This document shows, piece by piece, positions 7,644-35,884 of a DNA stretch of 42,553 nt. The DNA is taken from contig JAFZCU010000200.1 of NCBI GenBank assembly GCA_017556145.1, positions 1 through 42,553 on the forward strand, written 5' to 3'. Position numbers and translations under genes: made by a program. Positions within the stretch are counted from its first letter, which is position 1; every line of letters begins with the position of its first letter. The notes beneath the pieces are model-generated. The model searched no databases. It worked only from the letters and a program-made list of their open reading frames with translations, and had not been told where the DNA came from. The stretch is from Prevotella sp. (GTDB taxonomy: Bacteria > Bacteroidota > Bacteroidia > Bacteroidales > Bacteroidaceae).

Positions 7644-7709
7644 CAAAGTTAGTCAATTTAAGTTGAATATATATATTATCCATTGAAAAAAACAACGTAA
7701 ACGTTTTCA
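7644..7709 (-). promoter_or_regulatory. Promoter plus CGTAAACGTT operator of the tandem-domain gene
   Basis: Minus-strand -7 TAACTTTG at 7644-7651; no clear -33 element. The site acgtaaacgttttca lies at 7695-7709 (+ strand), its CG centre 51.5 bp above the -7 box. A wider dyad, cattgaaaa (7681-7689) and ttttcaatg (7704-7712), overlaps it. A weak -33 with an upstream palindrome at fixed distance fits activation rather than repression. Confidence 0.7.
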
Positions 7710-7740
7710 ATGGGTATAGCTGTTTCTAATCCATTACTAA

Positions 7741-7774
7741 CTAAAAAGAAAAAGAGGGGATTCGTCCCCTCTTT
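7741..7774 (-). terminator. Terminator of the susCD operon
   Basis: Perfect 10-bp stem aaagagggga (7751-7760) / tcccctcttt (7765-7774) around a four-base loop, followed on the minus strand by TTCTTTTTAG. It lies 24 bp after the lipoprotein stop. Confidence 0.92.
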
Positions 7775-7798
7775 AAAAGTGTTTGTATGTATGAATAT

Positions 7799-8254
7799 TT
7801 ATTTTTTGCCTCTGAACTCGTATTTAAATTCATAGTTCTTACGACCTACGCGCTGTGAGAGCGTGAACGAGGCATCCAGATTACCCGCTTCGTCGATTCT
7901 TCCTGAGAAGGCAACACCCAGTTTGTTGGCATCACCAGTCGTCTGGTTGAAGAACTGATAGCCATAGTTGGCATGCCAAACATTCGCGATGGATGAAGCG
8001 TTGATCGATGCATCCGGGCAAGAGAACGTGACATTGGTGGCGTTTGTGCCGGCAGCAGTCAGTGTGATGGTACCGCTATAGACATCTGTGCCTTCACTGC
8101 TGATTCGTGTCCACTCTCCAGTATAGGTTCCTGCAGATCCCTCCTCTGCCGATGAGGTGAAGTCGATGCTGGGATCGTCGTTGTCATCGCCGCAGGCTAC
8201 GAAAGTGCAACCTAAAGCGAGCATTGCAATGACTGAATATATAAATCTTTTCAT
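7799..8254 (-). CDS. SusD-linked surface lipoprotein
   Basis: A 151-residue lipoprotein with the lipobox FVACGDD (Cys near residue 21). The remainder (about 125 residues) looks like a small beta-barrel or sandwich of polar strands (YTGEW, YSGTITLT, FSGRIDEAGNL, FKYEFRGKK); I do not recognise the family. It is the third gene of the SusC-SusD operon, so by position it is a likely accessory glycan-binding lipoprotein. The ATG at 8254 is preferred to an upstream in-frame start because it begins a normal signal peptide (MKRFIYSVIAML) directly after the intergenic repeat. Confidence 0.8.
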   Translation of the reverse strand: MKRFIYSVIAMLALGCTFVACGDDNDDPSIDFTSSAEEGSAGTYTGEWTRISSEGTDVYSGTITLTAAGTNATNVTFSCPDASINASSIANVWHANYGYQFFNQTTGDANKLGVAFSGRIDEAGNLDASFTLSQRVGRKNYEFKYEFRGKK

Positions 8255-8255
8255 A

Positions 8256-8290
8256 TCAATTATCAATTATCAATTTTCAATTATCCATTA
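8256..8290 (-). repeat. 7-bp-periodic array between SusD and the lipoprotein
   Basis: Five consecutive 7-mers on the + strand: tcaatta, tcaatta, tcaattt, tcaatta, tccatta. It ends exactly at the SusD stop codon (8291) and reaches to within one base of the next ATG. Confidence 0.85.
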
Positions 8291-10129
8291 TTAGTATCCG
8301 GGATTCTGGTCTTCCTGAGAGATGCCGGTGTTGGCACTGATCTCATTGGCGGGAATCGGACGATACCACTTGATCTCACCCTTGTTGTTGGCCATGGCGG
8401 CAGCGTCGGAAACATACTCGCTGAACTGCACATTATAGCGAACCAACTGCTTGGTGCGGCGGAGGTCCATCCAGCGGTGTCCCTCGGCATAGAGCTCACG
8501 GGCACGCTCATCGAGGACAAGGTCGATGTCCTTGATGGTGAAGTTGCCTGTGGTGGCATATTCAGGCTGATAGGCACTGAAGGAACTGAGGGCAGCCAGA
8601 CCGGCACGACCGCGAACGGCATTGATCTTCTCCAGGGCCTGGGCGCTTTGGCCTGCCATCAGATAGGCCTCGGCTGCAATCAGGTACATGTCGCTGACGT
8701 GGAACACCACGATGTCGCGATAGTCATTGGCCTGGTTGGTAAAGTCGGCATTAGCGTCATCGAACTTCTTCACGCAGGCACCATTACTGGTCTGTACGTT
8801 GTAGTCGGCGATGCTCACCTTGCTCTTCGTCCATTTTGCCACACCCTTATTATCCTGAACGTAGACCCAAAGTGTCACCTGTGGCAATGTCAGCAGTGAG
8901 ATACGGACATCCGAATTGCAGTACTTATCCTTATCTGCAATCAGTTGGTTCTGATGTGCGTCAATCCAGGCTTGAACTTCAGCTTCTGTGTAGTAGTAGG
9001 GGAAGTAAACCTTACAGATGGGCATGGTATTCAGCTTTTCCTTTGCATTATAGTAGGCGTAGTAGCCTTCTGTGCCCCAAGTGGGTTTGCCACTGGCATC
9101 AAATGAGGAGTTGTACATCACCATCATATAGGTAGCCGCATAGCGGTTGTCACCCTTCTCGAAGAGGTACATGCTCTTCTGCGACTGGCAGTCCTCAGAG
9201 CTGGCTCCCTTGATACCGCTGGCGTCGTAAGCACCGTAGTAGCCGCCGAAAGCACCATGCATGCTGTGTCCGCCACTGATGATGTCACCACCGTAGCCGT
9301 TGCGCTCATACTGGATGGAGAAGATCTCCTCGGCATTCCCCTCGTTGAACGGTGACCATTTGTCTTCGAACGACATGGTCAGGCCGATGCCATTGATGGC
9401 CTTCTCTGCCCAGACTGCTGCCTGCGAGAAATTGCTGGTGCCGTTGACGTTATAAGTGCCCTGTGCGGCATCACCCAGCGAGGTGTCAAGATCCCATCCT
9501 GCTGCCAGGTAGACCTTGGCGAGGAGGGCAGCTACAGCCTGTTTGCTGGCCTTGCCGATATGGCTCTGGGCTTCCAGCGAAGAGCTGTTGTAGAGGCTGG
9601 TCAGATCCTCGATCATTGCGCTGTAGATCTCGTTCAGCGGTGTGCGGGGATAGCTTCTCTCTGCACTGTTGATGTATTCTGTGATATAGGGCACGCTGCC
9701 GAACTGCTGCGTCAGCAGGTAATAGCCGTAGTTGCGGAGGAAACGGGCCTCCTGGCCTAACTGAGAGTCGGCGCCTGCGTAGTAAATCACACCATTCGAC
9801 AGGTTGATGGTCCTATAGACATTCGAGTAGAAATTGGTGACCGTCGTATTCTCCGTGTTGAAGGTGTAGGTGTCGAAGTCTGACACGCTCTTACCACGGG
9901 TGTGGATATAGAGGTCGGTACCTCTGGAGAACAGGTCCAGGTTGAACCCGTAGTTCTTCAGGCTGCTGTAGGCAGCTGTCAGAAGCGACGAGGCATCCTT
10001 GTTGAAATATTGTTCTGCCGTCTGTCCGCCTGCCGACTTGTTCTCAGCTTCCATGAAATCGCTGCAAGCCGTCAAGGTGAAACCTGCAAAGAGGGCGGCA
10101 ATCACTGATAAATATATGTTCCTTTTCAT
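8291..10129 (-). CDS. SusD/RagB family glycan-binding lipoprotein
   Basis: A 612-residue outer-membrane lipoprotein forming the lid of the SusC transporter. Lipobox LTACSDF near residues 20-22; TPR-rich N-terminal half and the family signature region YLIAAEAYLMAGQ...LEKINAVRGRAG, followed by DERARELYAEGHRWMDLRRT near the C-terminus, all typical of RagB/SusD. Length is normal. It lies after SusC with only the heptamer array between. The ATG at 10129 (MKRNIYLSV) begins the signal peptide; an earlier TTG codon is less likely. The substrate is inferred to be a pectin fragment because SusC carries the shared operator. Confidence 0.93.
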   Translation of the reverse strand: MKRNIYLSVIAALFAGFTLTACSDFMEAENKSAGGQTAEQYFNKDASSLLTAAYSSLKNYGFNLDLFSRGTDLYIHTRGKSVSDFDTYTFNTENTTVTNFYSNVYRTINLSNGVIYYAGADSQLGQEARFLRNYGYYLLTQQFGSVPYITEYINSAERSYPRTPLNEIYSAMIEDLTSLYNSSSLEAQSHIGKASKQAVAALLAKVYLAAGWDLDTSLGDAAQGTYNVNGTSNFSQAAVWAEKAINGIGLTMSFEDKWSPFNEGNAEEIFSIQYERNGYGGDIISGGHSMHGAFGGYYGAYDASGIKGASSEDCQSQKSMYLFEKGDNRYAATYMMVMYNSSFDASGKPTWGTEGYYAYYNAKEKLNTMPICKVYFPYYYTEAEVQAWIDAHQNQLIADKDKYCNSDVRISLLTLPQVTLWVYVQDNKGVAKWTKSKVSIADYNVQTSNGACVKKFDDANADFTNQANDYRDIVVFHVSDMYLIAAEAYLMAGQSAQALEKINAVRGRAGLAALSSFSAYQPEYATTGNFTIKDIDLVLDERARELYAEGHRWMDLRRTKQLVRYNVQFSEYVSDAAAMANNKGEIKWYRPIPANEISANTGISQEDQNPGY

Positions 10130-10134
10130 AATTG

Positions 10135-10162
10135 TCAATTATCAATTATCAATTTTCAATTA
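10135..10162 (-). repeat. 7-bp-periodic array between SusC and SusD
   Basis: Four 7-mers on the + strand: tcaatta, tcaatta, tcaattt, tcaatta. The last unit contains the SusC stop codon (10160-10162). The sequence is almost the same as the array after SusD. Confidence 0.85.
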
Positions 10163-13100
10163 AAACTTAATGCTTGCGCCAATCTGGTAGTTGATGGTGC
10201 TTGGACCATCCTGCTTGACACCGGCACTGGCCCACTCAGGATCGAAGCCCTTGAAGCTGGTGAAGACAAACGGGTTGGTAACCGTTGCGTAGAGACGGAG
10301 GTGCTTGCAACCGAACTTGTTGAGGAAGTTCTTGTCGAAGGTGTAGCCTAAGGTGATGTTCTTCACCTTTAGGAACGAAGCATCCTGAACACCCTTAGCC
10401 TGATTCCACTCGCCTGACTGACGGCCTACACCGCCGCTGCTACCACCGTTGTTCGGGAAGGGATACTCACCGTAGTGGGTGGTCTCCTGATACTTCGGAT
10501 TGATATAGGTACCGTCCTCATTCACACCGTCGCAGTCGAGCAGCGTGCCGGCGGGGATATACCAGTCCATGTTCAGCTTCTGACGACCACGGTCGTTCAA
10601 GTCGAGGATGTTACTGGTCAGGAAGCTTGAATAGACTTTATAACCTACTTTAGCATAGAGTGAGAACGAGAAGTCCCAGTTCTTCCAGCTGAGGTTTGAG
10701 GTGAAGCTGCCGGTCCATTTCGGATCCATGCTCTGGATAGCGCGGTCATCAGGATTGATGGTGCCGTCACCGTTCTGGTCGACAATCCAGGGCTGACCTT
10801 CTGTCAGACCGTATACCTTATAATAATAGTCGTATTCCTTCATGGTGGAACCCGGTGTCAGACCGGCAATCTTGGCTGCTTCGTTATCGGGTACTGTCAT
10901 GTCGCGGTCAGAAACGATGCCGCCCCACTCGTAGGCATAGACGTTATTGGCTGAGTAACCCACGAAGAGGTTATCCATAGTGCCCTCACCGAGCACACGG
11001 TCGCCAGTGCCGTTGATCTCGCGAACCTTGTTCTTGTTGGCTGCGAAGGTGAAGGTGGTCTCCCAGCGCCAGTCTTTCTTGTCAATGTTAACCGTAGTCA
11101 GTGCCACTTCAATACCTGTATTGCGGACAGAACCGATGTTGGTTACCATCTTGCCACCGCCGGAAACGAGTGGCAACTGTACTTCGAAGAGCAGGTCCTT
11201 AGAGGTCTTCTGGTAGACATCGACGCTACCGTTGATACGGCCGCCGAAGAAACCGAAATCAATACCGGCGTTATATTCTGTAGAGGTCTCCCACTTCAGG
11301 TCTTTGTTCACGATACTGGAAGCTGAATAACCAGTGTTGTACTTCGCACCGAACGGATAGCTGATCGGATCGGAGAGCGTCTGCTGGGTATCATAATCAT
11401 GAATACCCGTATTGTTACCAGTCACACCATAAGCGAGACGGAGCTTCAAGTTGCTCAGCCACTCGTACTTCTGCATGAACGGCTCCTCAGAGATGCGCCA
11501 GGCGGCAGCAGCAGAGGGGAAGGTACCCCAACGGTTATCCTTGGTGAACTTCGAACTGCCATCACGACGGATGGTAGCGGTCAACAGGTAACGTCCCTTA
11601 TAACCGTAGTTCAGACGGGCGGCGTAGGAGGTCATGCTCGACTCGGTGTAGCCTGTCTTTGAAGCATCCGAAAGTCCGGTTGTGCCGTCAGAACGCTGGG
11701 CGGTGCCCATATTCCACCAATCGGTGAGATCCATCACTTCATTACCTTCAATATAGGTGTTTTCGGTGTTGCTTGCCTCTTGTGAGAAGAGCAGCATGAC
11801 GCCGAGATTGTGATCTTCGGCAATAGTCGTGTTGTAATTGATAATGTTATCCCATGTCCAGGAGAAACCGCGTTGATTGGTCATGTTCGCAGAGTTCTGC
11901 TCCAGACTGGAATCATAGAAGTTGCCGTTCTCGTCCCTATAACCCTCAAAGTAGCCCTGACGGTAGTAGTTGTAGTTGGGCGAGAAGGTGGTCTTGAAGT
12001 CCAGGCCCTTGATGATGTCGAACTTCAGGTAGACGTTACCCAGCAGGCGCCAGGTTTCACGCTCCTTGCTGGTACTCATCATCTTGAGCAGCGGGTTGGG
12101 CTCATCAGAGAACTGATAAGAGGCCGTTCCCAATGACTGGTAGTTACCTGGCTTTGCATTCAAGTTGCCGTCTGCATCGTAGGGAATCATATATGGATTC
12201 ATGCGGAAGGCACTTTGGATGGCGTAATCGTTGGCATATTCATTCTGAATTCTGGCAGCGTTGAAGCTGAAGCCGGCAGTGATCACCTTGTTGATCTTGG
12301 CATCTACACTACCCTTGAAGTTGATGCGGTTCGACTTATCGCCTTTGTAGATACCTTCCTGACCATTGTAACCCACGCCGAAGTGGTAATTGATGGCTTC
12401 GCTACCACCACTCACAGCTAAGAAATGGTTCTGCTGGCTACCGTCTTGAGTCACCATGTCGGGCCAGTCGTAGGTATTGCCGCTGGCCAGCATTTCCTTC
12501 ATACGGTAGGAACCTGAACCTGTACTCTCGCGCAAGAGACACTGTTCCAGAATGGCACCGCCGATCTGATAGACGGGATGCGAGGAATTGTCTGTCGTTG
12601 TTGTCGAACCATTACCGGCGTATGTCAGGAACTTCAGGAAACGGAAGTCGTAGAACTGCTGTCCGTCCATGAACTCCGGCATGCGGGCGGTCTTCGACCA
12701 GCCGTAGTATCCGTCATAGCTGATAGTGGGCTTCGATACCTTATTGCTGACGGTGGTACCGCTCTTGGTGGTCACCATCACGACACCGGCCGTGGCACGG
12801 CTACCGTAGATAGCGGTCGAAGAGGCATCCTTCAGAATATCGATACGCTCAATGTCCTGTGGGTTCAGCCAGTCGATATCACTACACATCACACCGTCGA
12901 CCACGTAGAGTGGGGTGGTTTTCGAGTTGATAGACGACTTACCGCGGATTTCGATGTTGTAGTCACCGCCACGACCAGAGGTCTGGGTGATGTTCACACC
13001 AGGGTTGCTACCCTGCAGGTTGGCCAGCACGGTGGGTGCACCCTTGGCGTTCAACTGCTCGGTATTCACGGATGATACAGAACCGGTGAGGTCTGTCTTC

Positions 13101-13444
13101 TTCATCGTACCGTAACCAACGACCACCACATCCTGCAGGGTGTTGGCATCTTCTTTCAGAATCACATTGACGCTGGTCTTACCGGCCACGTTGACATCTT
13201 GTGGCTGCATTCCAATGTAGGAGATGGTAAGCACCTTACCACCCTGCATTTTGATAGAGAAGTTTCCGTCGAAGTCCGTGATAACGGCATTCTTGGTGCC
13301 TTTCTCCAATACCGTTGCGCCGATGACCGGCTCACCCGTTTCATCGACTACATTTCCATTGACAGTCTGAGCTGAAATGGTGCCTACGATGAGACTCAAA
13401 ATCAACGTCAGCGCCATGCGGAACGTTTTTAATTTACTTTGCAT
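10160..13444 (-). CDS. SusC/RagA family TonB-dependent outer-membrane transporter
   Basis: A 1094-residue TonB-linked receptor importing oligosaccharides across the outer membrane. Order: signal peptide (about 1-25); carboxypeptidase-regulatory-like beta domain (27-105, VNGNVVDETGEPVIGATV); plug domain starting at VVVGYGTMKKTDLTGSVSSV and containing YVVDG and DASSTAIYGSRATAGVV; then the beta-barrel, ending in a Phe as expected for barrel insertion. Full length and intact. First gene of a three-gene operon with SusD and a lipoprotein, with its own promoter and the CGTAAACGTT operator. No anti-sigma or ECF sigma partner is present. Confidence 0.95.
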   Translation of the reverse strand: MQSKLKTFRMALTLILSLIVGTISAQTVNGNVVDETGEPVIGATVLEKGTKNAVITDFDGNFSIKMQGGKVLTISYIGMQPQDVNVAGKTSVNVILKEDANTLQDVVVVGYGTMKKTDLTGSVSSVNTEQLNAKGAPTVLANLQGSNPGVNITQTSGRGGDYNIEIRGKSSINSKTTPLYVVDGVMCSDIDWLNPQDIERIDILKDASSTAIYGSRATAGVVMVTTKSGTTVSNKVSKPTISYDGYYGWSKTARMPEFMDGQQFYDFRFLKFLTYAGNGSTTTTDNSSHPVYQIGGAILEQCLLRESTGSGSYRMKEMLASGNTYDWPDMVTQDGSQQNHFLAVSGGSEAINYHFGVGYNGQEGIYKGDKSNRINFKGSVDAKINKVITAGFSFNAARIQNEYANDYAIQSAFRMNPYMIPYDADGNLNAKPGNYQSLGTASYQFSDEPNPLLKMMSTSKERETWRLLGNVYLKFDIIKGLDFKTTFSPNYNYYRQGYFEGYRDENGNFYDSSLEQNSANMTNQRGFSWTWDNIINYNTTIAEDHNLGVMLLFSQEASNTENTYIEGNEVMDLTDWWNMGTAQRSDGTTGLSDASKTGYTESSMTSYAARLNYGYKGRYLLTATIRRDGSSKFTKDNRWGTFPSAAAAWRISEEPFMQKYEWLSNLKLRLAYGVTGNNTGIHDYDTQQTLSDPISYPFGAKYNTGYSASSIVNKDLKWETSTEYNAGIDFGFFGGRINGSVDVYQKTSKDLLFEVQLPLVSGGGKMVTNIGSVRNTGIEVALTTVNIDKKDWRWETTFTFAANKNKVREINGTGDRVLGEGTMDNLFVGYSANNVYAYEWGGIVSDRDMTVPDNEAAKIAGLTPGSTMKEYDYYYKVYGLTEGQPWIVDQNGDGTINPDDRAIQSMDPKWTGSFTSNLSWKNWDFSFSLYAKVGYKVYSSFLTSNILDLNDRGRQKLNMDWYIPAGTLLDCDGVNEDGTYINPKYQETTHYGEYPFPNNGGSSGGVGRQSGEWNQAKGVQDASFLKVKNITLGYTFDKNFLNKFGCKHLRLYATVTNPFVFTSFKGFDPEWASAGVKQDGPSTINYQIGASIKF

Positions 13445-13480
13445 ACGTTAGTTTTTATTAGTTATAAATTGAATATGTTG

Positions 13481-13547
13481 CAAAATTAGTGTTTTTTTTG
13501 TAAACAACGATAAATAATGATAAAAAAACTACACGTAAACGTTTTCA
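13481..13547 (-). promoter_or_regulatory. Promoter plus CGTAAACGTT operator of the susC operon
   Basis: Minus-strand -7 TAATTTTG at 13481-13488; only a partial -33 (TTG at 13505-13507, spacing 16). The site acgtaaacgttttca is at 13533-13547 (+ strand), its CG centre 52.5 bp above the -7 box. It is identical over 15 bp to the site upstream of the tandem-domain gene. Confidence 0.75.
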
Positions 13548-13572
13548 TTAGTGTTTTTTATACAAATAAAAA

Positions 13573-13607
13573 ATAAGGTGCATCTCACGCAGGGAGATAC
13601 ACCTTAT
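13573..13607 (-). terminator. Terminator of the pectate lyase-pectinesterase operon
   Basis: A 14-bp stem (13573-13586 with 13594-13607, one mismatch) with a 7-base loop; the minus strand continues TTTTTTATTT. It lies after the 47-residue lipoprotein gene and before the susC promoter. Confidence 0.9.
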
Positions 13608-13647
13608 CTGTCATAGCATCTTCAGATGATGATCCTTATTGTGTCCT

Positions 13648-13791
13648 TTAATTGGCGGGCTGATCCGTCACTTGCTCCTGAGGATTGTTGGTGTCGTCAA
13701 TACCGCCGTAAATGGGATTGTCTTCCTTGGTGCATGAGGTCATTACCACTGAGGCAACGGCGATGCACAGCAATAAAAGTATCTTCTTCAT
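13648..13791 (-). CDS. 47-residue lipoprotein downstream of pectinesterase
   Basis: A short ORF, ATG at 13791 and TAA at 13648-13650. The product begins MKKILLLLCIAVASVVMTSC, a standard lipoprotein signal with Cys20, leaving a mature peptide of only 28 residues (TKEDNPIYGG...VTDQPAN) that is acidic and Asn/Asp/Gln-rich. It starts 9 bp after the pectinesterase stop and is followed by the operon terminator, so it is almost certainly co-transcribed. It is unlikely to have a catalytic fold; it could be a small surface or assembly partner, or the remnant of a longer lipoprotein. Function unknown. Confidence 0.7.
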   Translation of the reverse strand: MKKILLLLCIAVASVVMTSCTKEDNPIYGGIDDTNNPQEQVTDQPAN

Positions 13792-13800
13792 ATCGTTATG

Positions 13801-16800
13801 TTATTTAATCACGACTTTTTTGTTATTGCGGATGTACAGACCCTTTTGGGGAGCGGTCACGCGCTGTCCGTTCAGGTTGTAGATCTCGTCCGTTTCATTG
13901 GCATTGGCCGTCGGCTGTTCGATACCGGTGGCTTCCTCAAATACCAGCGGATAGCTGCGGGCACCAGCTATATCCTGTGGGATGAGCAGCCAGGCCTTAT
14001 GTCCCTCGATAGCAAAGGCAGCACCGTCATTGGCACCCCAGTACCAGCCGAATATGTTGGCGTTCGGGGAGTTGGATGCGCCGTATGCAAGTTTATAGAA
14101 CAGACATGGTGTCCTGATGTCGGAGAAGGTCGTGGTAGCCTCGTCGCTGCCTCTCAGCAGGTTCTCACCATCGATGCTGGCCTCGGCCTTGGTGGGTGTC
14201 AGGTCATAAGTACCCTCCATCTTCTTGTCTGCCTTCAGCATCACAGCCGTACCAGCGGGGATGATGCCTTCCAGTTCGGTATAGGTCAGCTTGTCGCAGG
14301 TTGCCTGGGTCACGATGTAGGCCTTCAGACCACTCGGCAGGGCATAGCTCTTCTCAGAATCGTAGAAGGTGGCGTAACCGGTCTTGGCCACTTTGACGGT
14401 GGTCGGTGTCGAGGTTGCCTCACTCAATCCGCCCATCTGGTTAGTTGCGCAAACGGTATAGGCGGCATCGGTGTCATCAATGGTGTAAGCCGGTGTGGTG
14501 GTGATGGCAATGAGCGCTCCGTTCTTCATCACGGCCCAGTACTCCACATCCTTGTTGTTATCCCAAGTCAGCTTCTTACCGTTGAGTTTCACATTGGTGG
14601 GAGCCATGGCCTGGACAACCAGAGCGGCGGGATCCCATGGCTTCTCGATGTTGTTCTTGAACATCATGTCGTAGCTGTAGTTTGCAGCCTGGTCAGCCGT
14701 CAGGATGGTCTCGAAGGTACCGCCAAACGAGTTGATCTTGTTGCTCTGCGGCGTGATGTCGGTACCGTTGATGTCCATCGTGCCGTACTCACCGAACACC
14801 TTCGGGTCTTTGTTGTTCATACCCTTCTCAATCCAGCGCGAGGCGATGAGTGTCTTCTGGGCATTCTCGTCGAGCGTGGTGTTCAGGTAGACGGTGATAG
14901 GATCATTGTTCCAGGTACGACCGAAGTTCCAGTTGCCCTTGCCCTCTGCGAGGTCGACCACCGTACAGCCGTCGAAGACATAGCCGAACTTCACGGTGCC
15001 ACGCGGTGCTACGACGGTACGGCTGCCTGAGCCGTTGGTAGCACGAGGCTCCAACGAGAGCTGTGTATTCACGAAGCGCACGTCACCACCACCGCAAATG
15101 AAGTCGACGGTACCGTGGATGTCGCAATCCTCATAATACGACTGCATATTGTCGTTCGAGCTGTAGTAGGTGTCCTGACAAGAGAGCATGCGCACGCGTT
15201 TACCGATGGTGCGGTTACCGCTGTCCTGCATCACGGCTGCACGGCCGGCAGAACCGGCATTGTAGTAGTCGAGTGCATTCCAGAGGGTCAGGTCTTGCAG
15301 ATAGATGTTGGTACCGCTCACGCTGAACATGTCGGCGCTGCCCAGACCCTCGATGCTCTTGTCGGGAGCCGTCTTGATGATGGTCTTGTCCATCGACTGT
15401 CCGATGATTGAGATATTGTGTCCGCTGATGGCGGTCTTCACCGTCTCGTTCAGGTCATAAGTGCCGTTGGGCAGGTAGATGAAGGAGCGTTCTGCATCCT
15501 TGGCAGCGTTCGTACCGTTGACAATCTCCAGCACGTCGAGCAGGCTCTCTGCGCTGCCGGCCTTCACGAAGTACCAGCGGCCCTGGCTCTCGTAGTTGGT
15601 CTCGGCGGTGTTCACAATCTTTACACCGTGCAGGTACATCTCACCGGTGGTATTCAGTTTCAGGGTGAGGATGCCGCCTTCGCCCTCGTAGTTGAAGGCC
15701 ACGATCTCACCGTCCACGTTTTCACTGTTCATACCAGGCAGGGTGCCGAGTTTCTTACCCTTAGCGTCGAAGATCTCGATGTCGCCGGCACTGCCATAGC
15801 GGCAGAGGGTCAGCGATACGATGGCCTTCGGACCAACGAGCAGGTCAATCTTGTTGTTCTCGTCGGCCTTGAATGCCCAGCCGTGCTGAGCGTCGTGCCA
15901 GTAGTAGCTGCCCGAGGGGTTGAAGGCCTCGTGGTCGGCAGCATCGAAGAGCTTGTCGGTCAGGTTGAAGACATACTTCTTATGGGTGCTGGCGGTCTCA
16001 ATCTCGGTAGCTACGGCATAGAGGTTGATATTGCCGGTCACTACGGTCTCTGCGTTGTATTTCTCACCGCCGGCGGTCTTGATAAACCAGCCGCGTACCT
16101 TCATACCTTCCTCAGCGGTGGCGGTAGCGAAGTCGAGGTCGAACTGGCCGATGGTCTCGTCCTTCTCGCGCTTGAACTCGCCGAGCACGGTCTTCTTGTC
16201 GGTATCAACATAGGTCAGTGTGAAGTCGGGCTTCTGTACCAGCGTCAGCACATAGTCGATGGTGGTCTCTCCCTGTGTCATCGGGATGGTCACCACGCAC
16301 TTCGTATTGTCGCCTACATAGCCGATGACGCCAATCTCACCCTTGGCAGCAGTGGCCTGTACGGGATTGGTTTCGCTGATCATCGGTACCTTCTTTGAAA
16401 GTTCCATCTCTGCCTCATAGGCATCATCGAAGATCTTGGCAGCTGTGTACTCCTTACCGTTGATGGTCAGGGTAGCCAGCACGGGCACTTCCTTCTCAGT
16501 ACCGTTCAACGTACCTTCAATGACAATGTCGCCGAAGCCGATCTGCTTGGCACCCTGCAGATGATAGAGGTTGATGAGCAGACCACAAGTGCCCTCGGCA
16601 GGTGTGGCGCCGGTAATGTCGTATGATACCTCCGTGTAATTGGGGTTGCCGTTGTTACGGTTAGGCTTCACGCCGACGGCCAGCGATACGGTGCTCTTGT
16701 CAGGATTCTCCCAAGAGAAGTCGAGCAGACCGTTGTCCGTACCGAAGCGGGTGGTCTTCAGCGATACTTTCTTCGGGGTGAAGGTCAGTCCGAAGTTGGG

Positions 16801-18664: not shown

Positions 18665-20419
18665 TTATCTGATGACCTTCGAGGAAACTATCTGTCCATT
18701 GGCCATACGCTCCACACGAATGCTGATGCCACGTTGTGGCTCTGTCAGTCTGTGCCCGTTGAGGTTATAGTACTCTGTGGCGTTGATGGCAGAGGTGCGG
18801 ACATCATGGATGCCGCTGGCTTGCTGAAAGGGAGGGTAATACTCGTCTATTGTCGACTCGGCATCGGCATTGCCTGCCTTCATGATGTCTTCCACGAGGG
18901 AGTTGAGATAGACCTCCAGATTGGTGTACCATTTCTTCTCGGCATCGATTGTATAGGCATTCGGATCCAGGTCACCACCATTGGCCTGCTCCCAGACATC
19001 GGCCATGCCGTCGTTGTCGGCGTCGAAATCAGCGGAGCGCTGACCAGTCGGGAAGTTCTCCTCCGTATAGCCGTTGACGTTGGACACGAGGTCAATCTGG
19101 CCGGCCTTTTTGGTCACAGAACCCGTGTAAGTGGCTGTGCCGTTTTGGGCCTCTTCCATGTAGCGGGCGTCCACTTCGTCGCGATAGAGTGAAGCACCGG
19201 CATTCTCAAGCACCTTATTGAATGCATTGTCTGCACTGTGAGTGGTTACTTCACCGGTTTCGGTAGGTGTATCCAACTTAATCTTTACATAGTCAGTACC
19301 GTCGAAGTCGACGTATTCCACCTTGTCGCCATAATAATGTTTGGGGTCTTTGGTATAACGGTCGTTGTCCTTAATTCTGGTACCCGCATCGTAGTCAACA
19401 CCAGTCCAGTTGTTGTTGGTGACGCTTTGTTTGGCGGTCATCACGTTTCCATTAATATAGTATCGACTAGTCATGCCGACGAGATCTCCTGATGTTGAAT
19501 TGCCTGATGAACCTACCGAGATTGTCGTGATACGGTTTGTATTCGCACCAGGTCCTTGCTTGTAATAGTTATTGACAATGTTAACGTAACCGCCACCAGG
19601 ACCGCCGTAACAGCCATTGCCACAATTGTAAATCACGCTATTGCGGAAATCCACAATCTCCGACTGTACACAGTTTTCCCACTGATATTGGTCGTAAAGC
19701 AGGTTGCTTTTGTACTCATTCCTCATATAGCGGGCACCGTTGAAGCGCGGTGAGCGGTTTACCACATGGGCAATCATATTATGGTGGAAAGATGCCAGTT
19801 TACCACCCCAGATGCCGCCGTAGCCATGAGCGCCCTTACTATGTCCTGGATTGACCAGACTCTCAGCTATTGTACACCACTGCATGGTGAAGTTGTTGTT
19901 GTCGTAGAACGAGGCTACCTCGTCGATACTCCATGAGAAGGAACAGTGGTCGAGGATAATCCCTGTCTTATAACGTTCCCAGATGGCATCTGCGCCATCG
20001 TTCACATCTTTTTCCTGTCCACGACGCGAACGGATGTAGCGGATAATCACATTATTGCCGATACCGTGAATGGTATAATAACGTAGGGTGATGCCAGGGT
20101 AGGGGGCCGTCTGTCCGGCAATCGTCGTGTTGGCAGGAATGCTCAGGTCGGCCACCAAGGGAATGACACCGCCGACATCGAACACAATCGTGCGCGGACC
20201 GCTTTGTTTTAAGGCCCATCTCAGCGAACCTGCTGTTGATCCGTTTCTGTCGTCAAGTAAGTTTGTGACGTGGTAAACCTTTGTCGTGCCATCGCTGCCA
20301 CGTCCGCCGGTGACATAGCGTCCGTGTCCCTCGGCGCCGGGGAAGGCAGGAACTTGTGTCTGTGCTGTCGTCGTCAAACAGATAACAGCCAATGCTAATG
20401 CTGATAAAATTCGGTTCAT
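18665..20419 (-). CDS. PL1 family pectate lyase
   Basis: A 584-residue exported lyase cleaving de-esterified polygalacturonate by beta-elimination. Signal peptide ending TTTAQ (about 20); parallel beta-helix starting FPGAEGHGRYVTGGRGG-like, with the family blocks GSLRWAL, RTIVFDVGG, ILDHCSFSWSIDE, WGGKLASFHHN and NRSPRFNG (catalytic Arg region). Around 455-500 is an Asp-rich segment DFDADNDGMADVWEQ resembling a thrombospondin-3/EF-hand-type calcium site, common in Bacteroidetes lyases. The C-terminus (YYNLNGHRLTEPQRG) again has the short sorting motif. First gene of the operon with pectinesterase and the 47-residue lipoprotein; carries the shared operator. Confidence 0.92.
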   Translation of the reverse strand: MNRILSALALAVICLTTTAQTQVPAFPGAEGHGRYVTGGRGSDGTTKVYHVTNLLDDRNGSTAGSLRWALKQSGPRTIVFDVGGVIPLVADLSIPANTTIAGQTAPYPGITLRYYTIHGIGNNVIIRYIRSRRGQEKDVNDGADAIWERYKTGIILDHCSFSWSIDEVASFYDNNNFTMQWCTIAESLVNPGHSKGAHGYGGIWGGKLASFHHNMIAHVVNRSPRFNGARYMRNEYKSNLLYDQYQWENCVQSEIVDFRNSVIYNCGNGCYGGPGGGYVNIVNNYYKQGPGANTNRITTISVGSSGNSTSGDLVGMTSRYYINGNVMTAKQSVTNNNWTGVDYDAGTRIKDNDRYTKDPKHYYGDKVEYVDFDGTDYVKIKLDTPTETGEVTTHSADNAFNKVLENAGASLYRDEVDARYMEEAQNGTATYTGSVTKKAGQIDLVSNVNGYTEENFPTGQRSADFDADNDGMADVWEQANGGDLDPNAYTIDAEKKWYTNLEVYLNSLVEDIMKAGNADAESTIDEYYPPFQQASGIHDVRTSAINATEYYNLNGHRLTEPQRGISIRVERMANGQIVSSKVIR

Positions 20420-20447: not shown

Positions 20448-20512
20448 CAAATTTAGGCATTTTATTTCTATTATGAATACTTTCTGCCGGAAAAGTTACT
20501 AAAACGTTTACG
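20448..20512 (-). promoter_or_regulatory. Promoter plus CGTAAACGTT operator of the pectate lyase operon
   Basis: Minus-strand -7 TAAATTTG at 20448-20455, no recognisable -33. The operator is in the opposite orientation to the other three (aaaacgtttacg on the + strand, 20501-20512), yet its CG centre is 50.5 bp above the -7 box. Orientation independence at fixed distance fits a symmetric DNA-binding dimer. Confidence 0.7.
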
Positions 20513-26502: not shown

Positions 26503-26525
26503 ATTTGTTGCATGTTAGATAGGAT

Positions 26526-26612: not shown

Positions 26613-26615
26613 TGA

Positions 26616-28904: not shown

Positions 28905-28915
28905 TATTTCGGATG

Positions 28916-29116: not shown

Positions 29117-29140
29117 CATCCAAAATCTGAAAAGGGTGTT

Positions 29141-30832
29141 ATGGAATCATTTCAATGGCTTAAAGATTTATTTACGACGACGGATTCAGTGGCCCATATT
29201 GCCTTGCTCTATGCCGTTGTCATTGCCATAGGTGTCTATCTGGGTAAAATCAAGGTGTTTGGCATCTCACTGGGTGTTACATTCGTATTGTTTGCAGGTA
29301 TTGTGGCCGGACATATCGGTTTCACTGCTCCTATTCCTATTCTTAACTTCGTACAGGATTTCGGACTCATTCTATTCGTCTTTATGATCGGTTTGCAAGT
29401 TGGTCCCGGCTTCTTTGAGAACTTCGGCACACAAGGCGTGAAACTCAACGCGTTGTCGGCATCGGCCATCCTGCTGAACATCCTTGTCATGTTTGCCTGT
29501 TACTATATCTTCTTCGACACCAGCAACCCGATAAGCCTTCCCATGATGGTGGGTACGCTCTATGGTGCTGTAACCAACACGCCGGGTCTGGGTGCCGCCA
29601 ATGAGGCCTTGCAGAGCATCTTCCCCGACGGTGCCCCGCAGATAGCCTCGGCCTATGCCTGTGCCTATCCGCTGGGTGTGCTGGGTATTATCGGGGCTAC
29701 CATCATCGTAAGGTATCTGTGCAAGGTGAGGCTGGAAAAGGAGGAGGAACGCCTCAAGGCAATGGAGGAGACCAGCGTTGACAAGAAACCCTACAAGATG
29801 CACGTGGAAGTAACGAACCAATATCTGGAAGGTAAGACTTTGCTGCAGGTACATGATTTCCTGAACCGTGACTTCGTCGTTTCACGTATTGTCCATGATG
29901 GCGAGGTGTCGATACCCAACCGGAATACCGTCTTCCATCTGGGCGATCAGATGCTTATTGTATGTGCAGAGGCCGACCATGAGGCCATTGTGGCCTTTAT
30001 CGGTCCAATGATTGACATTGACTTTGAGCAACAGGACCAGCCATTGGTCTCGAAACGTATCCTTGTTACAAACCCCAGCATGAACGGCAAGTCGCTGGCC
30101 TCGCTGCACTTCTCCAGCGTTCACGGTGTTAACGTGACCCGCGTGACCCGTCATGGCATCGACCTCTTCGCCTCGGCAGGTTTGCCTTTACAGGTGGGTG
30201 ACAAGATAATGGTGGTGGGTCCGGAGGATGCCGTTGACCGTGTAGCCAATAAAATGGGCAACAGTATACGTCGTCTGAATGCTCCGAATATTGCCACAAT
30301 CTTCGTTGGGATATTCCTTGGACTGATATTCGGCTCATTGCCCATTGCCATCCCTGGCATGCCCGTTCCCGTGAAACTTGGTCTTGCAGGCGGACCGCTC
30401 ATCGTTGCCATCCTTATCGGAAGATACGGCTATAAGATACACCTCGTGACCTATACCACCACTTCGGCCAACATGATGCTACGCGAGATCGGACTCGTGC
30501 TGTTCCTGGCCTCGGTGGGTATCAAGGCGGGAGCCAACTTCTTTGAGACGGTGATACAAGGGGAAGGACTGCTTTTTGTGTTGACGGGATTCCTGATCAC
30601 CATCATCCCCATTCTTATTATCGGTCCCATAGCCCGCATCCGCTACAAGTTCAATTACTTCACCATAGCCGGTATGATAGCAGGAACTTACACTGACCCG
30701 CCCGCATTGGCCTATGCTAACAGCATCTGCTCAAAAGAGGCTCCGGCATTGGGCTACTCAACGGTCTATCCACTATCGATGTTCCTGCGTATCTTTACGG
30801 CACAGATCGTGGTGCTGTTCTTCTGCGGATAG
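29141..30832 (+). CDS. AspT/YidE-family membrane transporter with two RCK_C domains
   Basis: A 563-residue inner-membrane protein of the aspartate:alanine exchanger family. Two homologous membrane halves (about 20-190 and 390-560) each carry a family signature: [16 protein letters not shown] in the first, [15 protein letters not shown] in the second. Between them lie two TrkA-C (RCK_C) domains (about 215-290 and 300-375), probably regulatory ligand-binding modules. The substrate is unknown; members exchange small anions such as aspartate/alanine or succinate. Single-gene unit, divergent from patatin and convergent with the GH28 fusion, with only 13 bp to the latter's stop. Confidence 0.9.
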
Positions 30833-30845
30833 ATCTGTTATGAAG

Positions 30846-33800
30846 TTATTGCATGCGTTGGAGGCCCTCCCAGCGCACATTCCAGGTGCCATCCTTCGGG
30901 AAACCAGGGTTGAGAGGTTCCTCGTAACCATCCCAGCCGGCGCACATCATGGCGACAGCCGTTAACAGGGCACCATTGCCGGGCAGGTAGATACGCAGAC
31001 GATCAGCGGTCTGGAAGTTATGGCCATTTTTTAGATAGGTGTTCTTCTGGGTGTCGATCAGCAGGGCCTTCAGGGCTGTTTCCGGGTCTCCCAAACGAGC
31101 CGCACACATGGCGATCATACCATAGTCCCAACCCCAGGTGGTCTGCCAGTTCCAGTGCTTCATCACCCAGTCGAGGGTCTGCTTCATCTTCTCCTTGTTA
31201 TATAATAAGGTATAGGGCGTGTGTGCGCTGGGCAGCATGCCACAGGCGCCAAGCACGGCCGGATGGTCGTTGCGGATTTTGTCGGCAAAGGTCTCTGATT
31301 TCCGAATCAAGGGGACAGGTCCATGATCGCTCGCATCGAGCTTATCAAGCGACCTATCCCCTTGATTCAGGTCGACCGTGTCGAAAGGGTCGAAACTTTC
31401 CATGTTGTCGGTCTTTCCCAGAGGCAGTCCGGCAGTGTAGATGCCCTGCACCTCAGGCATGGAGGCGAGCCGGGCGATGATCTCATCCCACTGGGCGTGA
31501 CGGGGTTTCCCCTGACGCTCACGCCATTGGTTGGCGACAGAGAGTCCATACTGCCAGTAGGCGAGTTCGAAGGGCTGGTTGAAGGAGATATCCTTGGTCA
31601 TGCACTCCTGCATGGCGGTGGCACCTTGGAGAATATAATGATTTCCGGGATGTCCAGAAAGTCCGGGAGCTCTGCTGACGAAGTCGGCCATGAACTCAGC
31701 GGTGGCCTCAACCTGTTCACCATAGGTCATGAGGGTTTCCTCCGAGGGGGTTGCACGATACATCTCTTCGGCGAGATAGATATAATGGGGCTGTTGCCAG
31801 ATGAGGAAGGAACCGGTATTACTTGGGGCTTCGCCAGCCCAGGGATCGGTCATCTTCATCCAACGCACGCCTTTGAAGCCCTGGCGCTCCGCAATCTTTC
31901 TGGCCACGGGGTAGGCTGTGCTGTTATACCATTCAAGCATCTGGCGGATGTTCCCGGGATGGTTCCAGAGGGCGAAATCAACCGCATGCCACCAGGTCAT
32001 CTCCAGATGCGGACGACCGAACCAGGAATTATAGGTGAGACCTGTCTCCTGTGGGGGCATGTTATTGGCACAGTTGATCTGGGTGAGATACTGTGACAGC
32101 ACGACACGGCGCTCTAATTCCGGGGCTCTCGGGTCGGTACATTGCGAGAAATCGATGATGGCCCCCGACTGCCAGTAGTCATGCCAGTAGCGCTGGGCTG
32201 CCTTGTGATAACTGGAATAGTCGAAGGGGGATTTGTTCGGAGTGCTCGGAGTATTCGGAGTAATCGGATTACTCTGAGAATACTCAGCCGAGAAGGTGAG
32301 CACATCGTCGGTGGTGGAGAGCTCGAAATGATGGCGGTCACATTCCTGAAGCGTGGCAGTGCCTGACCATGTCAGGATAACATAATACTTGGTTGCATCG
32401 AGGGTGCGCTCAATGATGGCCGAGTGATCATCTTGGGCGATGACAGCCGACCGGTGACGTTCGGGCTTGTTCCAGTCATTGGCATCATCGGCATGATTGC
32501 CAGTGGGGTAGGAGAAACGCAGGGAGATGGCAGCGCGCTGGTCCTTCAGCAGATTGCTCTTGACACGGGCAAACAGGGCATCCTTTTGAGGATGGACACC
32601 AGTAGACACTTCCACGGTCTCGCCGTCAGCCCTGAACGATGATTCTATCTCACCATCCCAGAGCAGGAGCGACTGCTGAGACTGTTTTAATGCGGTCAGG
32701 GGAATCGGCTCACCTTTGGCATCCTTGAGGCTGAGGCCGATGGTGCCGAGGTTCAGACGGTGGGGATTGGCACGGAAATACGCTGTGGCCTGTTTGTGAC
32801 GACCGTCCGTGTCTTTTTTGAATTCTACAGCATACACTTCGGGATGCCCATGGCCGAAATCAAAGGACTTCTCCGACTCAGAAGGCTGCAGATGGTTGGT
32901 GTTTTCGAATTGGTGCCAGCCCCAGTCGGACATGGCGTTCAGGGGCACACCTGCCCCATATTCAAAAGGGTAGCTCTGCAGACCGGTGATATCAACGGTG
33001 GTAGCAAAGTGACCATTCCCCACGCTGAGTGAAGCCAGAGGGTCGGCCTCGGTAATCAGGGGGTTATGACGCGACACGACGGCTTGCCTGTCGATGGCAG
33101 CCGTCGTGTTTTCGGTGTTATAGCCTAATTTCTCCATCTCAAGCGAGGCCCATATAAACGGCCCCACGCCTTTGGCATCATTGTCGCGGATGGGTTCCGA
33201 GAGGTAATATTGGTAGCCTCCGTCACGCCGTTTGTTCTCCTTCACGCTGCCTTTGGGGTTTATTTTCTTCATGGCAGCCTCTACCTCAGGGGTGGCGGCA
33301 GGACCAAGGCCGGCTACAGAACAACAATTGGTGAGTGAGATGGTCTTGTCTTCATTCACACGGATCATGTTGTTGATAATGCCTTTATAGGCCTTGATGC
33401 CAGCATCGCGGTATTTGGTGCCGAGATAGCCTTTGTTATAGGCTTTCAACAGCACATAGGCAAACATCGATGTCGCTGTTGACTCCAGATAATTGCCCTC
33501 ACGTCCGGGAGCATCCATCACCTGATACCAGGTGCCTGTCTTCTTGTCCTGCCACTTGATGATGGCATCGAGGTCCTTCTGTAGCAGGTCGATGACCTCC
33601 TGACGACGCGCGTAGTCCTCCGGTAAGGCATCGAGCACTTCGATCAGGGCCATCGAATACCAGCCTTGGGCACGGGCCCAGCAGTGCTGCGACTGACCGG
33701 TCTCCTTATCGGCCCAGAAGGTGTTGCGCGTCTCGTCGTAGGCGTGGCGGTTCAGACCGGTCTTGGGATCGAGGGTTCGCTCGTAGGTGATCTTCAGTTG

Positions 33801-35777
33801 GTTGACGGCATCGTCGTAGATGCTCTGAATACTCTGATTATTCCGATTACTCCGAGTATTCCGAGATTTCTGAGTACTCTGAGAATTCACAATCGGGGCG
33901 GTCAGGCAACGAAAGGGTAAGCCCATGAAAATACCGTCAAGCCATACCTGATAGGCATAGATAGCCTTGTGCCAGAATACCTTGTCGACCTTGGTGCGCG
34001 GCTGGTCATTCAACTGCTTCATCATGGTCTGCATGGCCATGAGGTTCTTCTTCTCGGGATAAAGATTGTACATACGGGTTACAAAATGACCGGTACGGAT
34101 GTTGTCGAGATTGTAGTCGAGGATATCGTAGCCCCGGATTTCGCCCTTTGCATTGATCATGGTATCGGTATATTCCTGACAGTACTGGCGGATGGCCTCA
34201 CCACCATAGGTCAGGTAGGTGTCCAACATACCCTCGAGCTCGATCCCCATCACATAGCTCCATTTGGGCTGTGTGGAGAAGTCGAGCAGGTAGCTCTTCG
34301 GCACACGCTTCATCTCACTATACGTGAGCCACTCGCTGTAGTGCTTATAGGGCATTTCTGTCAGAGCCAGGGAACCATTGACATAAAGATTCTCGAACTT
34401 CACGTTGCGCGTCTTGCCAGAAGAGAAGTTGCCTGCTTCAACCCCGTTGAACTTACAGTTCTTGACAAAGATGTCGTACACGTAAGTATCTTCCTCAAGA
34501 CCGATGATCTGTACACCGTATTTCGATTTCTCGCTGGTGACATTCTCCATGTAGACATTGCGCACCGTGGGATAGTTGCCACGACAGCAGATCTCATTAT
34601 GCTCGTAGTCGAGGTTGATCTTCAGTACCGATTCCTTGCAGACGCCTACCTTCACATCCTTCATGTTGATGTTCTCGATGATACCACCTCGGCAGGAATT
34701 GGTCTTGATGCGCAATACACGCTCCAACTCCGGAGAGTCCATCACGCAGTCGTGGGCATAGACGTTCTTACAGCCACCACTGATCTCACTGCCAATCACC
34801 ACACCACCATGGCCATTCTTCATCTCACAGTTGCGGATGATGATGTTCTGCGAGGGCATGTTACGCTCACGGCCATCGCGGTTACGGCCGCTCTTGATGG
34901 CGATGCAGTCGTCGCCGGTATTGAAGAAACAGTCCTCAATCAGCACACGGTTGCAGCACTCGGGGTCGCAGCCGTCACCGTTCGGACCATCGTTGATCAT
35001 CTTCACCCTCCGGACGGTGATATCGGTGGAGTGCAGGGGATGGATCACCCAGAAGGGCGAACGCAACAGAGTGATATCCTCCAGCAGGATGCCCTCACAC
35101 TTGTTGAAGTTGACGAGCTGTGGACGCAAGCCGTCCTGAGGTCCGAAGACGCGCTCAGGCGTGCGCTCACCTTTCTCATTATACATGGGAATGCCGTCCT
35201 CACCATTCTTCAGGAGTCTTGCACGGGCCCCCTTGTTCTGGGCGATACCACCTTCCTTGGCTCCAAAACGGGCATTGCCACACCAGGGCCACCAGGTTTC
35301 TTTGGAGCCGCCTCCGTCGATGGTGCCCTTGCCGGTGATGGCGATGTCCTTGGCCTTGAAGGCATAGACACAGGGTGAGAGATTGAAACACTCCAGTCCT
35401 TCCCAGGAGGTCTCCACGATGGGATAGAGCTCGGGCTCGAAGGCAAACTCCAACACGGCACCTTCCTGTACTTCGAGGTTCACGCCACTCTTCAACTGGA
35501 TGGCGGCGGTCAGGAATTTGCTGCCAGCTGGCACCACCACCTTTCCGCCACCTTTCTTCGAACATTGGTCGATGGCTTTCTGGATGGCCTTCTGGTTCTG
35601 GGCGGCGGTGGCATCGGTCTTCGCGCCATACTTAGTGATCAGATACGCCTTGTCGGCAAACTGAGGCACACGGATACTCTGTTCAATCTGCTTGTACTGG
35701 GTCTCATTCCATTGGGCATGAGCCGCTGCCGGTATCAGCAGGCAGAGCATCAACACTTGAAATAGTCTTTTCTTCAT
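30846..35777 (-). CDS. GH28-GH105-(alpha/alpha)6 three-domain pectin-degrading fusion
   Basis: A 1643-residue exported enzyme. Signal peptide to about residue 21. Domain 1 (about 40-480) is GH28 polygalacturonase: Asp268 (NGDGCD), Asp289-Asp290 (GDDC), His323 (GHGG) and Arg356-Lys358 (RIK) all present. Domain 2 (about 500-890) is GH105 unsaturated galacturonyl/rhamnogalacturonyl hydrolase: the WLDGIFM Asp and HCWARAQGW His blocks are present. Domain 3 (about 905-1643) looks like an (alpha/alpha)6 glycosidase (WGRPHLEMTWWH-type block, TDPWAGEAP, WGWDYGMIA); I cannot name its family, though clan-L or GH154-like enzymes are candidates. Low-complexity inserts sit at about 631-652, 1166-1181 and 1470-1491. 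The logic is exo-cleavage of polygalacturonate followed by removal of unsaturated uronic acid. Own promoter with shared operator. Confidence 0.88.
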   Translation of the reverse strand: MKKRLFQVLMLCLLIPAAAHAQWNETQYKQIEQSIRVPQFADKAYLITKYGAKTDATAAQNQKAIQKAIDQCSKKGGGKVVVPAGSKFLTAAIQLKSGVNLEVQEGAVLEFAFEPELYPIVETSWEGLECFNLSPCVYAFKAKDIAITGKGTIDGGGSKETWWPWCGNARFGAKEGGIAQNKGARARLLKNGEDGIPMYNEKGERTPERVFGPQDGLRPQLVNFNKCEGILLEDITLLRSPFWVIHPLHSTDITVRRVKMINDGPNGDGCDPECCNRVLIEDCFFNTGDDCIAIKSGRNRDGRERNMPSQNIIIRNCEMKNGHGGVVIGSEISGGCKNVYAHDCVMDSPELERVLRIKTNSCRGGIIENINMKDVKVGVCKESVLKINLDYEHNEICCRGNYPTVRNVYMENVTSEKSKYGVQIIGLEEDTYVYDIFVKNCKFNGVEAGNFSSGKTRNVKFENLYVNGSLALTEMPYKHYSEWLTYSEMKRVPKSYLLDFSTQPKWSYVMGIELEGMLDTYLTYGGEAIRQYCQEYTDTMINAKGEIRGYDILDYNLDNIRTGHFVTRMYNLYPEKKNLMAMQTMMKQLNDQPRTKVDKVFWHKAIYAYQVWLDGIFMGLPFRCLTAPIVNSQSTQKSRNTRSNRNNQSIQSIYDDAVNQLKITYERTLDPKTGLNRHAYDETRNTFWADKETGQSQHCWARAQGWYSMALIEVLDALPEDYARRQEVIDLLQKDLDAIIKWQDKKTGTWYQVMDAPGREGNYLESTATSMFAYVLLKAYNKGYLGTKYRDAGIKAYKGIINNMIRVNEDKTISLTNCCSVAGLGPAATPEVEAAMKKINPKGSVKENKRRDGGYQYYLSEPIRDNDAKGVGPFIWASLEMEKLGYNTENTTAAIDRQAVVSRHNPLITEADPLASLSVGNGHFATTVDITGLQSYPFEYGAGVPLNAMSDWGWHQFENTNHLQPSESEKSFDFGHGHPEVYAVEFKKDTDGRHKQATAYFRANPHRLNLGTIGLSLKDAKGEPIPLTALKQSQQSLLLWDGEIESSFRADGETVEVSTGVHPQKDALFARVKSNLLKDQRAAISLRFSYPTGNHADDANDWNKPERHRSAVIAQDDHSAIIERTLDATKYYVILTWSGTATLQECDRHHFELSTTDDVLTFSAEYSQSNPITPNTPSTPNKSPFDYSSYHKAAQRYWHDYWQSGAIIDFSQCTDPRAPELERRVVLSQYLTQINCANNMPPQETGLTYNSWFGRPHLEMTWWHAVDFALWNHPGNIRQMLEWYNSTAYPVARKIAERQGFKGVRWMKMTDPWAGEAPSNTGSFLIWQQPHYIYLAEEMYRATPSEETLMTYGEQVEATAEFMADFVSRAPGLSGHPGNHYILQGATAMQECMTKDISFNQPFELAYWQYGLSVANQWRERQGKPRHAQWDEIIARLASMPEVQGIYTAGLPLGKTDNMESFDPFDTVDLNQGDRSLDKLDASDHGPVPLIRKSETFADKIRNDHPAVLGACGMLPSAHTPYTLLYNKEKMKQTLDWVMKHWNWQTTWGWDYGMIAMCAARLGDPETALKALLIDTQKNTYLKNGHNFQTADRLRIYLPGNGALLTAVAMMCAGWDGYEEPLNPGFPKDGTWNVRWEGLQRMQ
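31304..31368 (-). repeat. In-frame REP-like palindrome inside the fusion gene
   Basis: 18-bp arms, gaatcaaggggacaggtc (31304-31321) and gacctatccccttgattc (31351-31368), with one mismatch. The 29-bp centre has a further small stem gctcg/cgagc. The whole 65-bp cruciform is translated in frame (VDLNQGDRSLDKLDAS, then DHGPVPLI) in domain 3. The GGGGACAGGTC motif recalls REP palindromes linked to RAYT transposases (from memory). Confidence 0.8.
32237..32281 (-). repeat. In-frame 9-bp-periodic array, copy 2 in fusion gene
   Basis: TCGGAG-type cores at exactly 9-bp steps (32237, 32246, 32255, 32264, 32273, + strand). The coding strand reads SNPITPNTPSTPNKS. Its coding-strand sequence matches the non-coding strand of the array at 33823-33885, so the two are in opposite orientation. 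Confidence 0.8.
33823..33885 (-). repeat. In-frame 9-bp-periodic array, copy 1 in fusion gene
   Basis: Seven 9-mers on the + strand: ctctgaata, ctctgatta, ttccgatta, ctccgagta, ttccgagat, ttctgagta, ctctgagaa. Translated as an Asn/Ser/Gln/Arg-rich loop (SQSTQKSRNTRSNRNNQS) within the GH105 domain where homologues have a short loop. Confidence 0.85.
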
Positions 35778-35794
35778 TTGTATTTAGTAAATTA

Positions 35795-35856
35795 TTAGCT
35801 TGTAGTCTCACGTTTCGTGTGCAAAGATACGAAAAATACGTGAGACTACAAACTAA
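35795..35856 (-). other. 19-bp inverted repeat enclosing the fusion-gene promoter
   Basis: Arms 35795-35813 and 35838-35856 match at 18 of 19 positions (the exception is a G-U pair in RNA); the 24-base loop contains the -7 box. Read through from trpA, the RNA would form a long stem followed by UAAUAAUUU, a plausible terminator. RNA starting at the internal promoter carries only the 3' arm and cannot form it. Confidence 0.75.
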
Positions 35857-35884
35857 ATACCGGAAATAATAACGTAAACGTTAT
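35822..35884 (-). promoter_or_regulatory. Promoter plus CGTAAACGTT operator of the fusion gene
   Basis: Minus-strand -7 TATCTTTG (35822-35829) and -33 TTTG (35849-35852), 19-bp spacer. The operator acgtaaacgttatc begins at 35872; its CG centre is 50.5 bp above the -7 box. It is a perfect 16-bp dyad here (35869-35884, ataacgt-aa-acgttat) and overlaps the trpA stop codon (35881-35883). Confidence 0.75.

Follow-up and report, generated by a model that had tools for sequence, protein, structure and literature searches.

Which protein recognises the sequence CGTAAACGTT, which stands before several pectin-locus genes of a Prevotella sp., and what does its spacing from their promoters say about how that protein acts? 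The genes lie on contig JAFZCU010000200.1 of the metagenome-assembled genome (MAG) GCA_017556145.1, and positions 1 to 42,553 of that contig are called the window below. We put the probability at roughly three in four that the motif serves as operator to a single LacI-family regulator, encoded on another contig of the same MAG (C139), whose dimer would sit near -62 or -72, probably activating pectin and hexuronate genes together with an RNA and restraining its own gene.

Within the window the exact motif occurs at only four places, 7696-7705 (+), 13534-13543 (+), 20503-20512 (-) and 35873-35882 (+), and every one of them is upstream of a minus-strand gene of the pectin locus (Table 1). The CG centre of the motif is 51, 52, 50 and 50 bp, respectively, from a perfect TAnnTTTG, the -7 box, measured to its upstream edge. 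The initial annotation had placed the motif in these four upstream regions at a fixed distance from the -7 box, and this is confirmed; its distances of 51.5, 52.5, 50.5 and 50.5 bp describe the same positions in a half-base convention. By a first-order Markov model built from 180 kb of the genome, one would expect 0.04 exact matches in the window and 2.9 in the whole genome. The genome holds 13, at 12 places spread over seven contigs, against eight for the reversed control pattern; enrichment of the bare 10-mer is therefore modest, and the signal is carried by clustering and phasing. With up to two mismatches allowed, the window holds 45 matches against 23.7 expected; 35 of these are inside open reading frames (ORFs) and the other 10 are at, or no more than 15 bp from, the four sites, so specificity is limited to the exact core.

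Beyond the window, exact sites are found on contig C85 (three places), before uxaC on C135, beside a LacI gene on C139, between a second LacI gene and susC on C144, before an ORF of 79 codons on C186, and inside an ORF on C170, the last probably by chance. NCBIfam PRK02925 (655 bits, cut-off 387) identifies the uxaC product as a glucuronate isomerase. Distances of 50-52 bp recur on C85, C135, C186 and the RNA side of C139; the motif is 61 bp from the box on both sides of the C144 gap and 25 bp from it on the lacI side of C139. A regulon of four promoters, as first proposed, is thus too small: exact phased sites are also found before uxaC, a divergent RNA and the small ORF, within the C144 lacI/susC gap, and in a second copy of the pectin locus. 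That second copy, on C85 (L017-L018), comprises the whole locus including its trp and GH57 genes. We do not favour reading it as a paralogue, as its trp and GH57 genes are 69-99% identical to those of the window; the copy probably comes from a second strain within the MAG (contamination 5.02%).

The phasing recurs across the genus. A scan of 60 genus genomes for AACGTTTACG, 32-62 free bases and TANNTTTG gave 104 matches in 36 of them, the genome studied here included. The distances fall into two peaks one helical turn apart, with 17, 34 and 12 matches at 50, 51 and 52 bp and 22 and 9 at 60 and 61 bp, and all remaining distances within 39-69 bp account for 10 matches altogether; the peaks therefore hold 94 of the 104 matches, or 84 of 94 when our own genome is excluded. 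No such peaks appear in the same genomes at 70-100 bp (seven matches) or 8-38 bp (nine matches). In the opposite orientation there are 52 matches, 34 of them new; among the 32 new ones from other genomes, 14 are at 50-52 bp and seven at 60-61 bp, and this share of 21 in 32 means that the background is higher there. Constant phasing whatever the orientation, another claim of the initial annotation, is thus borne out by the window distances and by the genus-wide peaks. Outside the genus, the order was covered by 148 genomes, only one of which belongs to the same family; these gave 13 matches, one of them at 50 bp, and no peak.

The operator consensus is about CGYAAACGTTTRCG, a CG-centred palindrome of the AAACGTTT type that marks LacI/GalR operators; in the left half, which the search left free, 84-86% of sites have G at -6 and 83-85% have A at -4. 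The suggested likeness to LacI-type operators holds up. Positions +12..+15 after the operator are 93-100% A/T in both distance classes (90 promoters). A -33 box (TTTG at -23..-25) is present in only six of 43 promoters of the 50-52 bp class, RNA promoters apart, versus 50 of 126 operator-free control promoters (p = 0.002), as expected from the earlier remark that these boxes are weak; it is present in one of 75 RNA promoters. The fixed helical phase that these sites keep upstream of the promoter is the arrangement expected of class I-type activators.

The genome has three LacI-type genes, on C139, C144 and C178. The protein that most likely acts at the window sites is that of C139, because phased sites track its gene: in the 36 genomes common to the lacI search and the phased-site scan, a C139-type gene is present in 21, and phased sites occur in 20 of these 21 and in one of the 15 without it. 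The initial annotation had found no LacI or hybrid two-component regulator within the window, and this candidate is indeed encoded outside it. The protein is 339 amino acids long, with an N-terminal LacI helix-turn-helix (HTH) domain (PF00356, 46.5 bits, cut-off 27) and a sugar-binding-type core, residues ~6-337 aligning at full length to CytR, CcpA and PurR. It resembles the CytR, RbsR and CcpA profiles over their full length, and the nearest PDB chains by sequence are CcpA, with every NCBIfam equivalog cut-off checked (CcpA, CytR, PurR, Cra) being missed (CcpA 173 of 442 bits). Eighteen aligned proteins of this type are 70-93% identical to our copy. The nearest relative outside the genus (G054, 64% over the query) has neither the RNA core nor an exact operator adjoining it.

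At C139 one operator lies between lacI and a conserved divergent RNA, and the phased promoter points away from lacI; like the two helically equivalent distances and the co-occurrence of regulator and sites, this sharing is read directly from the sequences. A scan of named genomes returned 444 lacI relatives, and the following figures refer to the best 80 of these, all titled Prevotella, Prevotellaceae or Xylanibacter except one uncultured bacterium. The exact operator is phased to the RNA promoter in 74 loci, and in all 74 a lacI-side -7 box is 24-25 bp from the operator centre; of the remaining six, five have the operator with a 1-nt change, at 51 or 61 bp, and the last is cut off by the end of its contig. 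The RNA core is present by a strict pattern in 78, with one 1-nt variant and one contig that ends before it. The stretch into which this promoter points has no evident conserved ORF. Nineteen loci (18 relatives and our own) have GTAATGAATAGTTGATAATA in common, followed by a hairpin and a U-run. Eleven of the 13 hairpin pairs show changes on both sides, and pairing is kept in 95.9% of cells versus 77.0% when shuffled and at most 48.1% when slid. Rfam 15, searched with E up to 1, gave no match in five RNA loci (L019, L097, L109, L131, L139). A covariance model found 30 strong copies (at least 66 bits) and 10 weak ones in the 60 genus genomes, the strong copies being present in 15 of the 21 lacI-positive and one of the 15 lacI-negative genomes of the shared 36. 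Beside the distant lacI genes of G009, G011, G014 and G016, no core is found within the 330 nt read.

We also note that four of the 10 weak matches (of 40 in all; 37-43 bits) carry an GAATAGTTGATA-type core, and that such cores stand before terminators elsewhere (L277, L278, L284, L286), some at the 3' ends of ORFs; since it recurs, this core may be a wider module. When 450 gene starts were searched for targets, the RNA core paired no better than 12 shuffles (mean -9.58 vs -9.82 kcal/mol), and the best three pairings were with leaders of lacI in relatives. For a set of 75 lacI leaders the mean was -9.49 vs -7.46 for 40 shuffles, the core beating all 40 in 14 leaders; the lacI leader of our own genome does not pair with it (-3.9). 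Antisense matches in our genome were mostly A/T-rich repeats, with one at a start codon (L274), and we claim no target among them. An A/T-rich stretch between the trp genes of the window (39127-39146) also resembles the antisense of the core.

These features suggest a mechanism. Two distances one helical turn apart, an A/T tract and the weak -33 boxes of the 50-52 bp class fit a class-I-like activator, and it is from this promoter geometry that we infer activation as the sign of regulation. A CcpA/GalR-like dimer, answering to a presumed effector, would bind near -62 or -72 and contact RNA polymerase, probably the alpha C-terminal domain seated on the A/T tract next to the operator. Through this contact the RNA, the pectin locus, uxaC and further hexuronate genes would be activated, and the RNA would in turn relay the signal post-transcriptionally to its putative targets. 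For the lacI promoter, the operator centre falls at about -36, 24-25 bp from the -7 box, and the operator so covers the -33 region; lacI is therefore most likely self-restrained.

The same regulator and operator could instead work by contact repression, the dimer at ~-62 blocking polymerase until an effector releases it. Most LacI-family proteins repress, GalR does so by contact when bound at -60.5 of the gal promoter, and a face-specific contact needs helical phasing just as much. The -33 boxes of the 50-52 bp class are nevertheless weaker than those of controls, as dependence on an activator would have it, and operators near the promoter are rare, nine matches at 8-38 bp in a scan of one orientation that is not the lacI-side one; we therefore regard repression as unlikely. 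Less likely still is that a LacI paralogue binds the window sites, either that of C144, which is beside susC and a 4-alpha-glucanotransferase-like gene, or that of C178, beside a kdgK-like gene. The C144 lacI and its divergent susC do have the exact motif in common, and C178-like lacI genes divergent from a kdgK-like gene have a 60-61 bp site in L129, L136 and L140. However, of the 15 genomes that lack the C139 type, 14 have no phased site although 12 carry other genes of the LacI type (26-49% identity over the query, types unsorted), and the C178 contig of our MAG is without the exact motif. It is very improbable that the motif belongs to some general A/T-phased element upstream of promoters instead of being the operator of a specific protein: control promoters show ~10 bp A/T spacing too, but the CG-centred near-palindrome, its restriction to the genus and its co-occurrence with one gene argue against an artefact of promoter architecture.

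Several observations weigh against operation by the C139 protein as an activator. Because the search pattern dictated the right half of the operator, the left half alone is independent consensus. The 126 control promoters have weaker phased A/T tracts of their own at ~10 bp spacing, so such tracts are partly a general promoter feature. In the 60-61 bp class 16 of 27 promoters have a -33 box, and there the claim of weak boxes fails. Presence of the C139 type was scored as at least 64% identity over a 90-residue N-terminal query, the best matches in the other genomes being at 49% or below, and the co-occurrence (Fisher 5.7e-8) is among related genomes with no phylogenetic correction. One genome (G018) has four phased sites and no C139-type lacI match, another (G028) has the gene with sites at 49 and 57 bp, and six of the 21 lacI-positive genomes have no strong RNA copy by the covariance model. 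Finally, the N-terminal domain of the C144 LacI is similar and an exact motif lies at 61 bp on both sides there, so cross-binding is possible.

Table 1. Operators, promoters, genes and the divergent RNA (window positions unless a locus is given)
Feature	Position	Strand	Remarks
-7 box, promoter 1 (TAACTTTG)	7644..7651	-	
Operator 1 (TGAAAACGTTTACG)	7696..7709	-	exact core; upstream of gene 5993-7594; centre 51 bp from -7 box
-7 box, promoter 2 (TAATTTTG)	13481..13488	-	
Operator 2 (TGAAAACGTTTACG)	13534..13547	-	exact core; upstream of susC; 52 bp; orthologous C85 site likewise 52 bp
-7 box, promoter 3 (TAAATTTG)	20448..20455	-	
Operator 3 (CGTAAACGTTTTAG, opposite orientation)	20499..20512	-	upstream of pectate lyase; 50 bp
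-7 box, promoter 4 (TATCTTTG)	35822..35829	-	
Operator 4	35873..35886	-	upstream of GH28/GH105 fusion; touches trpA stop codon; 50 bp
Target protein, 533 aa (amino acids)	5993..7594	-	no Pfam domain above its cut-off
SusD	8291..10129	-	follows susC
SusC (TonB-dependent receptor), target	10160..13444	-	
Pectinesterase-domain protein, 1602 aa	13801..18609	-	starts 55 bp after pectate lyase gene
Pectate lyase, 584 aa, target	18665..20419	-	PDB 9buj 'Pectate lyase', E 2.3e-56; no Pfam hit
GH28 plus GH88/105 fusion, 1643 aa, target	30846..35777	-	
Divergent RNA, ~90-100 nt	L019 1347-1440 (contig C139)	+	covarying terminator; no Rfam match

Operator 4 shares the last 2 nt of the trpA ORF (35881-36660). 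Pectin-locus genes with an operator are also found in C85, G020, G025 and G031: a related GH28/GH105 gene is preceded by a site in all four, and a related pectate lyase gene by CGCAAACGTTTTAG in C85 and by CGTAAACGTTTTAG in G031. Among 80 loci fetched from relatives, with gene identities judged from N-termini, the first gene downstream was uxaC in six, kdgK-like in five (a label resting on kinase profiles below their cut-offs), GH28/GH105-like in four and SusC-like in eight. An uncharacterised ORF of 79-84 aa has a phased operator in four genomes, our own (L023 12037-12276), L130, L143 and L150; in our MAG it follows what we take to be a pgk gene. A second RNA follows operators of the 60-bp class in ten fetched loci (for example L086 1272-1385), the -7 box often being preceded by a TTGATTTATATCAA-like box, and in eight of the ten the gene opposite it resembles hflX. 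The model of this RNA has matches in 17 of the 60 genus genomes and none in our MAG. Rfam 15, searched with five of its loci (L086, L093, L118, L147, L159), matched L147 only, on the same strand, to the Bacteroides small RNA BTnc231, far below threshold (27.3 bits, gathering 80.4, E 0.12).

Among known systems, the LacI/GalR global regulators CcpA, CytR, PurR and Cra are similar in their LacI HTH, in full-length profile similarity and in the CcpA PDB chains, and PurR and GalR operators have the same AACGTT core; the C139 protein differs in falling below their equivalog cut-offs, in its two fixed upstream distances and in the pairing of its gene with a divergent RNA. CRP activates in class I fashion from -61.5 and -71.5, and here too there are two distances one helical turn apart with an A/T tract between operator and promoter; unlike CRP, the protein is LacI-type, the promoter is of the Bacteroidota -7/-33 kind and the polymerase contact is predicted. 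In enterobacteria the gene of SgrR, a sugar-type regulator, is divergent from the small RNA SgrS, much as C139 lacI stands back to back with a small RNA and apparently controls the promoter of that RNA; SgrR itself does not belong to the LacI family, and the likeness is one of arrangement, not of RNA relation. In Bacteroides thetaiotaomicron, KdgR (BT0487), UxaR (BT0824) and others are predicted LacI regulators of uronate use (PMC3878776); they share with the C139 protein the LacI family and the galacturonate/glucuronate genes, a comparison by description and not by orthology or operator. That source assigns rhamnogalacturonan/pectin loci to hybrid two-component systems (PMC3878776). DonS-type RNAs, described in PMC7366714 as antisense to susC homologues in Bacteroides, are also short and belong to glycan use, whereas the RNA here is divergent from a regulator gene. 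In searches of open-licence papers, no listed title or opening of an abstract described such a regulator or RNA, which is not to imply that it is unpublished.

How Prevotella-type bacteria use pectin and hexuronates is of importance in the rumen and the gut, and an operator, its likely protein, a promoter geometry and a conserved RNA are now named that can be tested in cultured relatives such as Xylanibacter ruminicola. Tentatively, and on balance doubtfully, they might form a carbon-control hub of Prevotella-type bacteria, in which a LacI activator, and not hybrid two-component systems alone, would act from two class-I-like positions and through an operator shared with an RNA that signals to mRNAs, in some lineages lacI's own. 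If true, the proposed regulation would provide the unusual promoter of Bacteroidota with a LacI-type activator of exact architecture, and the link of the regulon to a conserved RNA would be its more unusual part.

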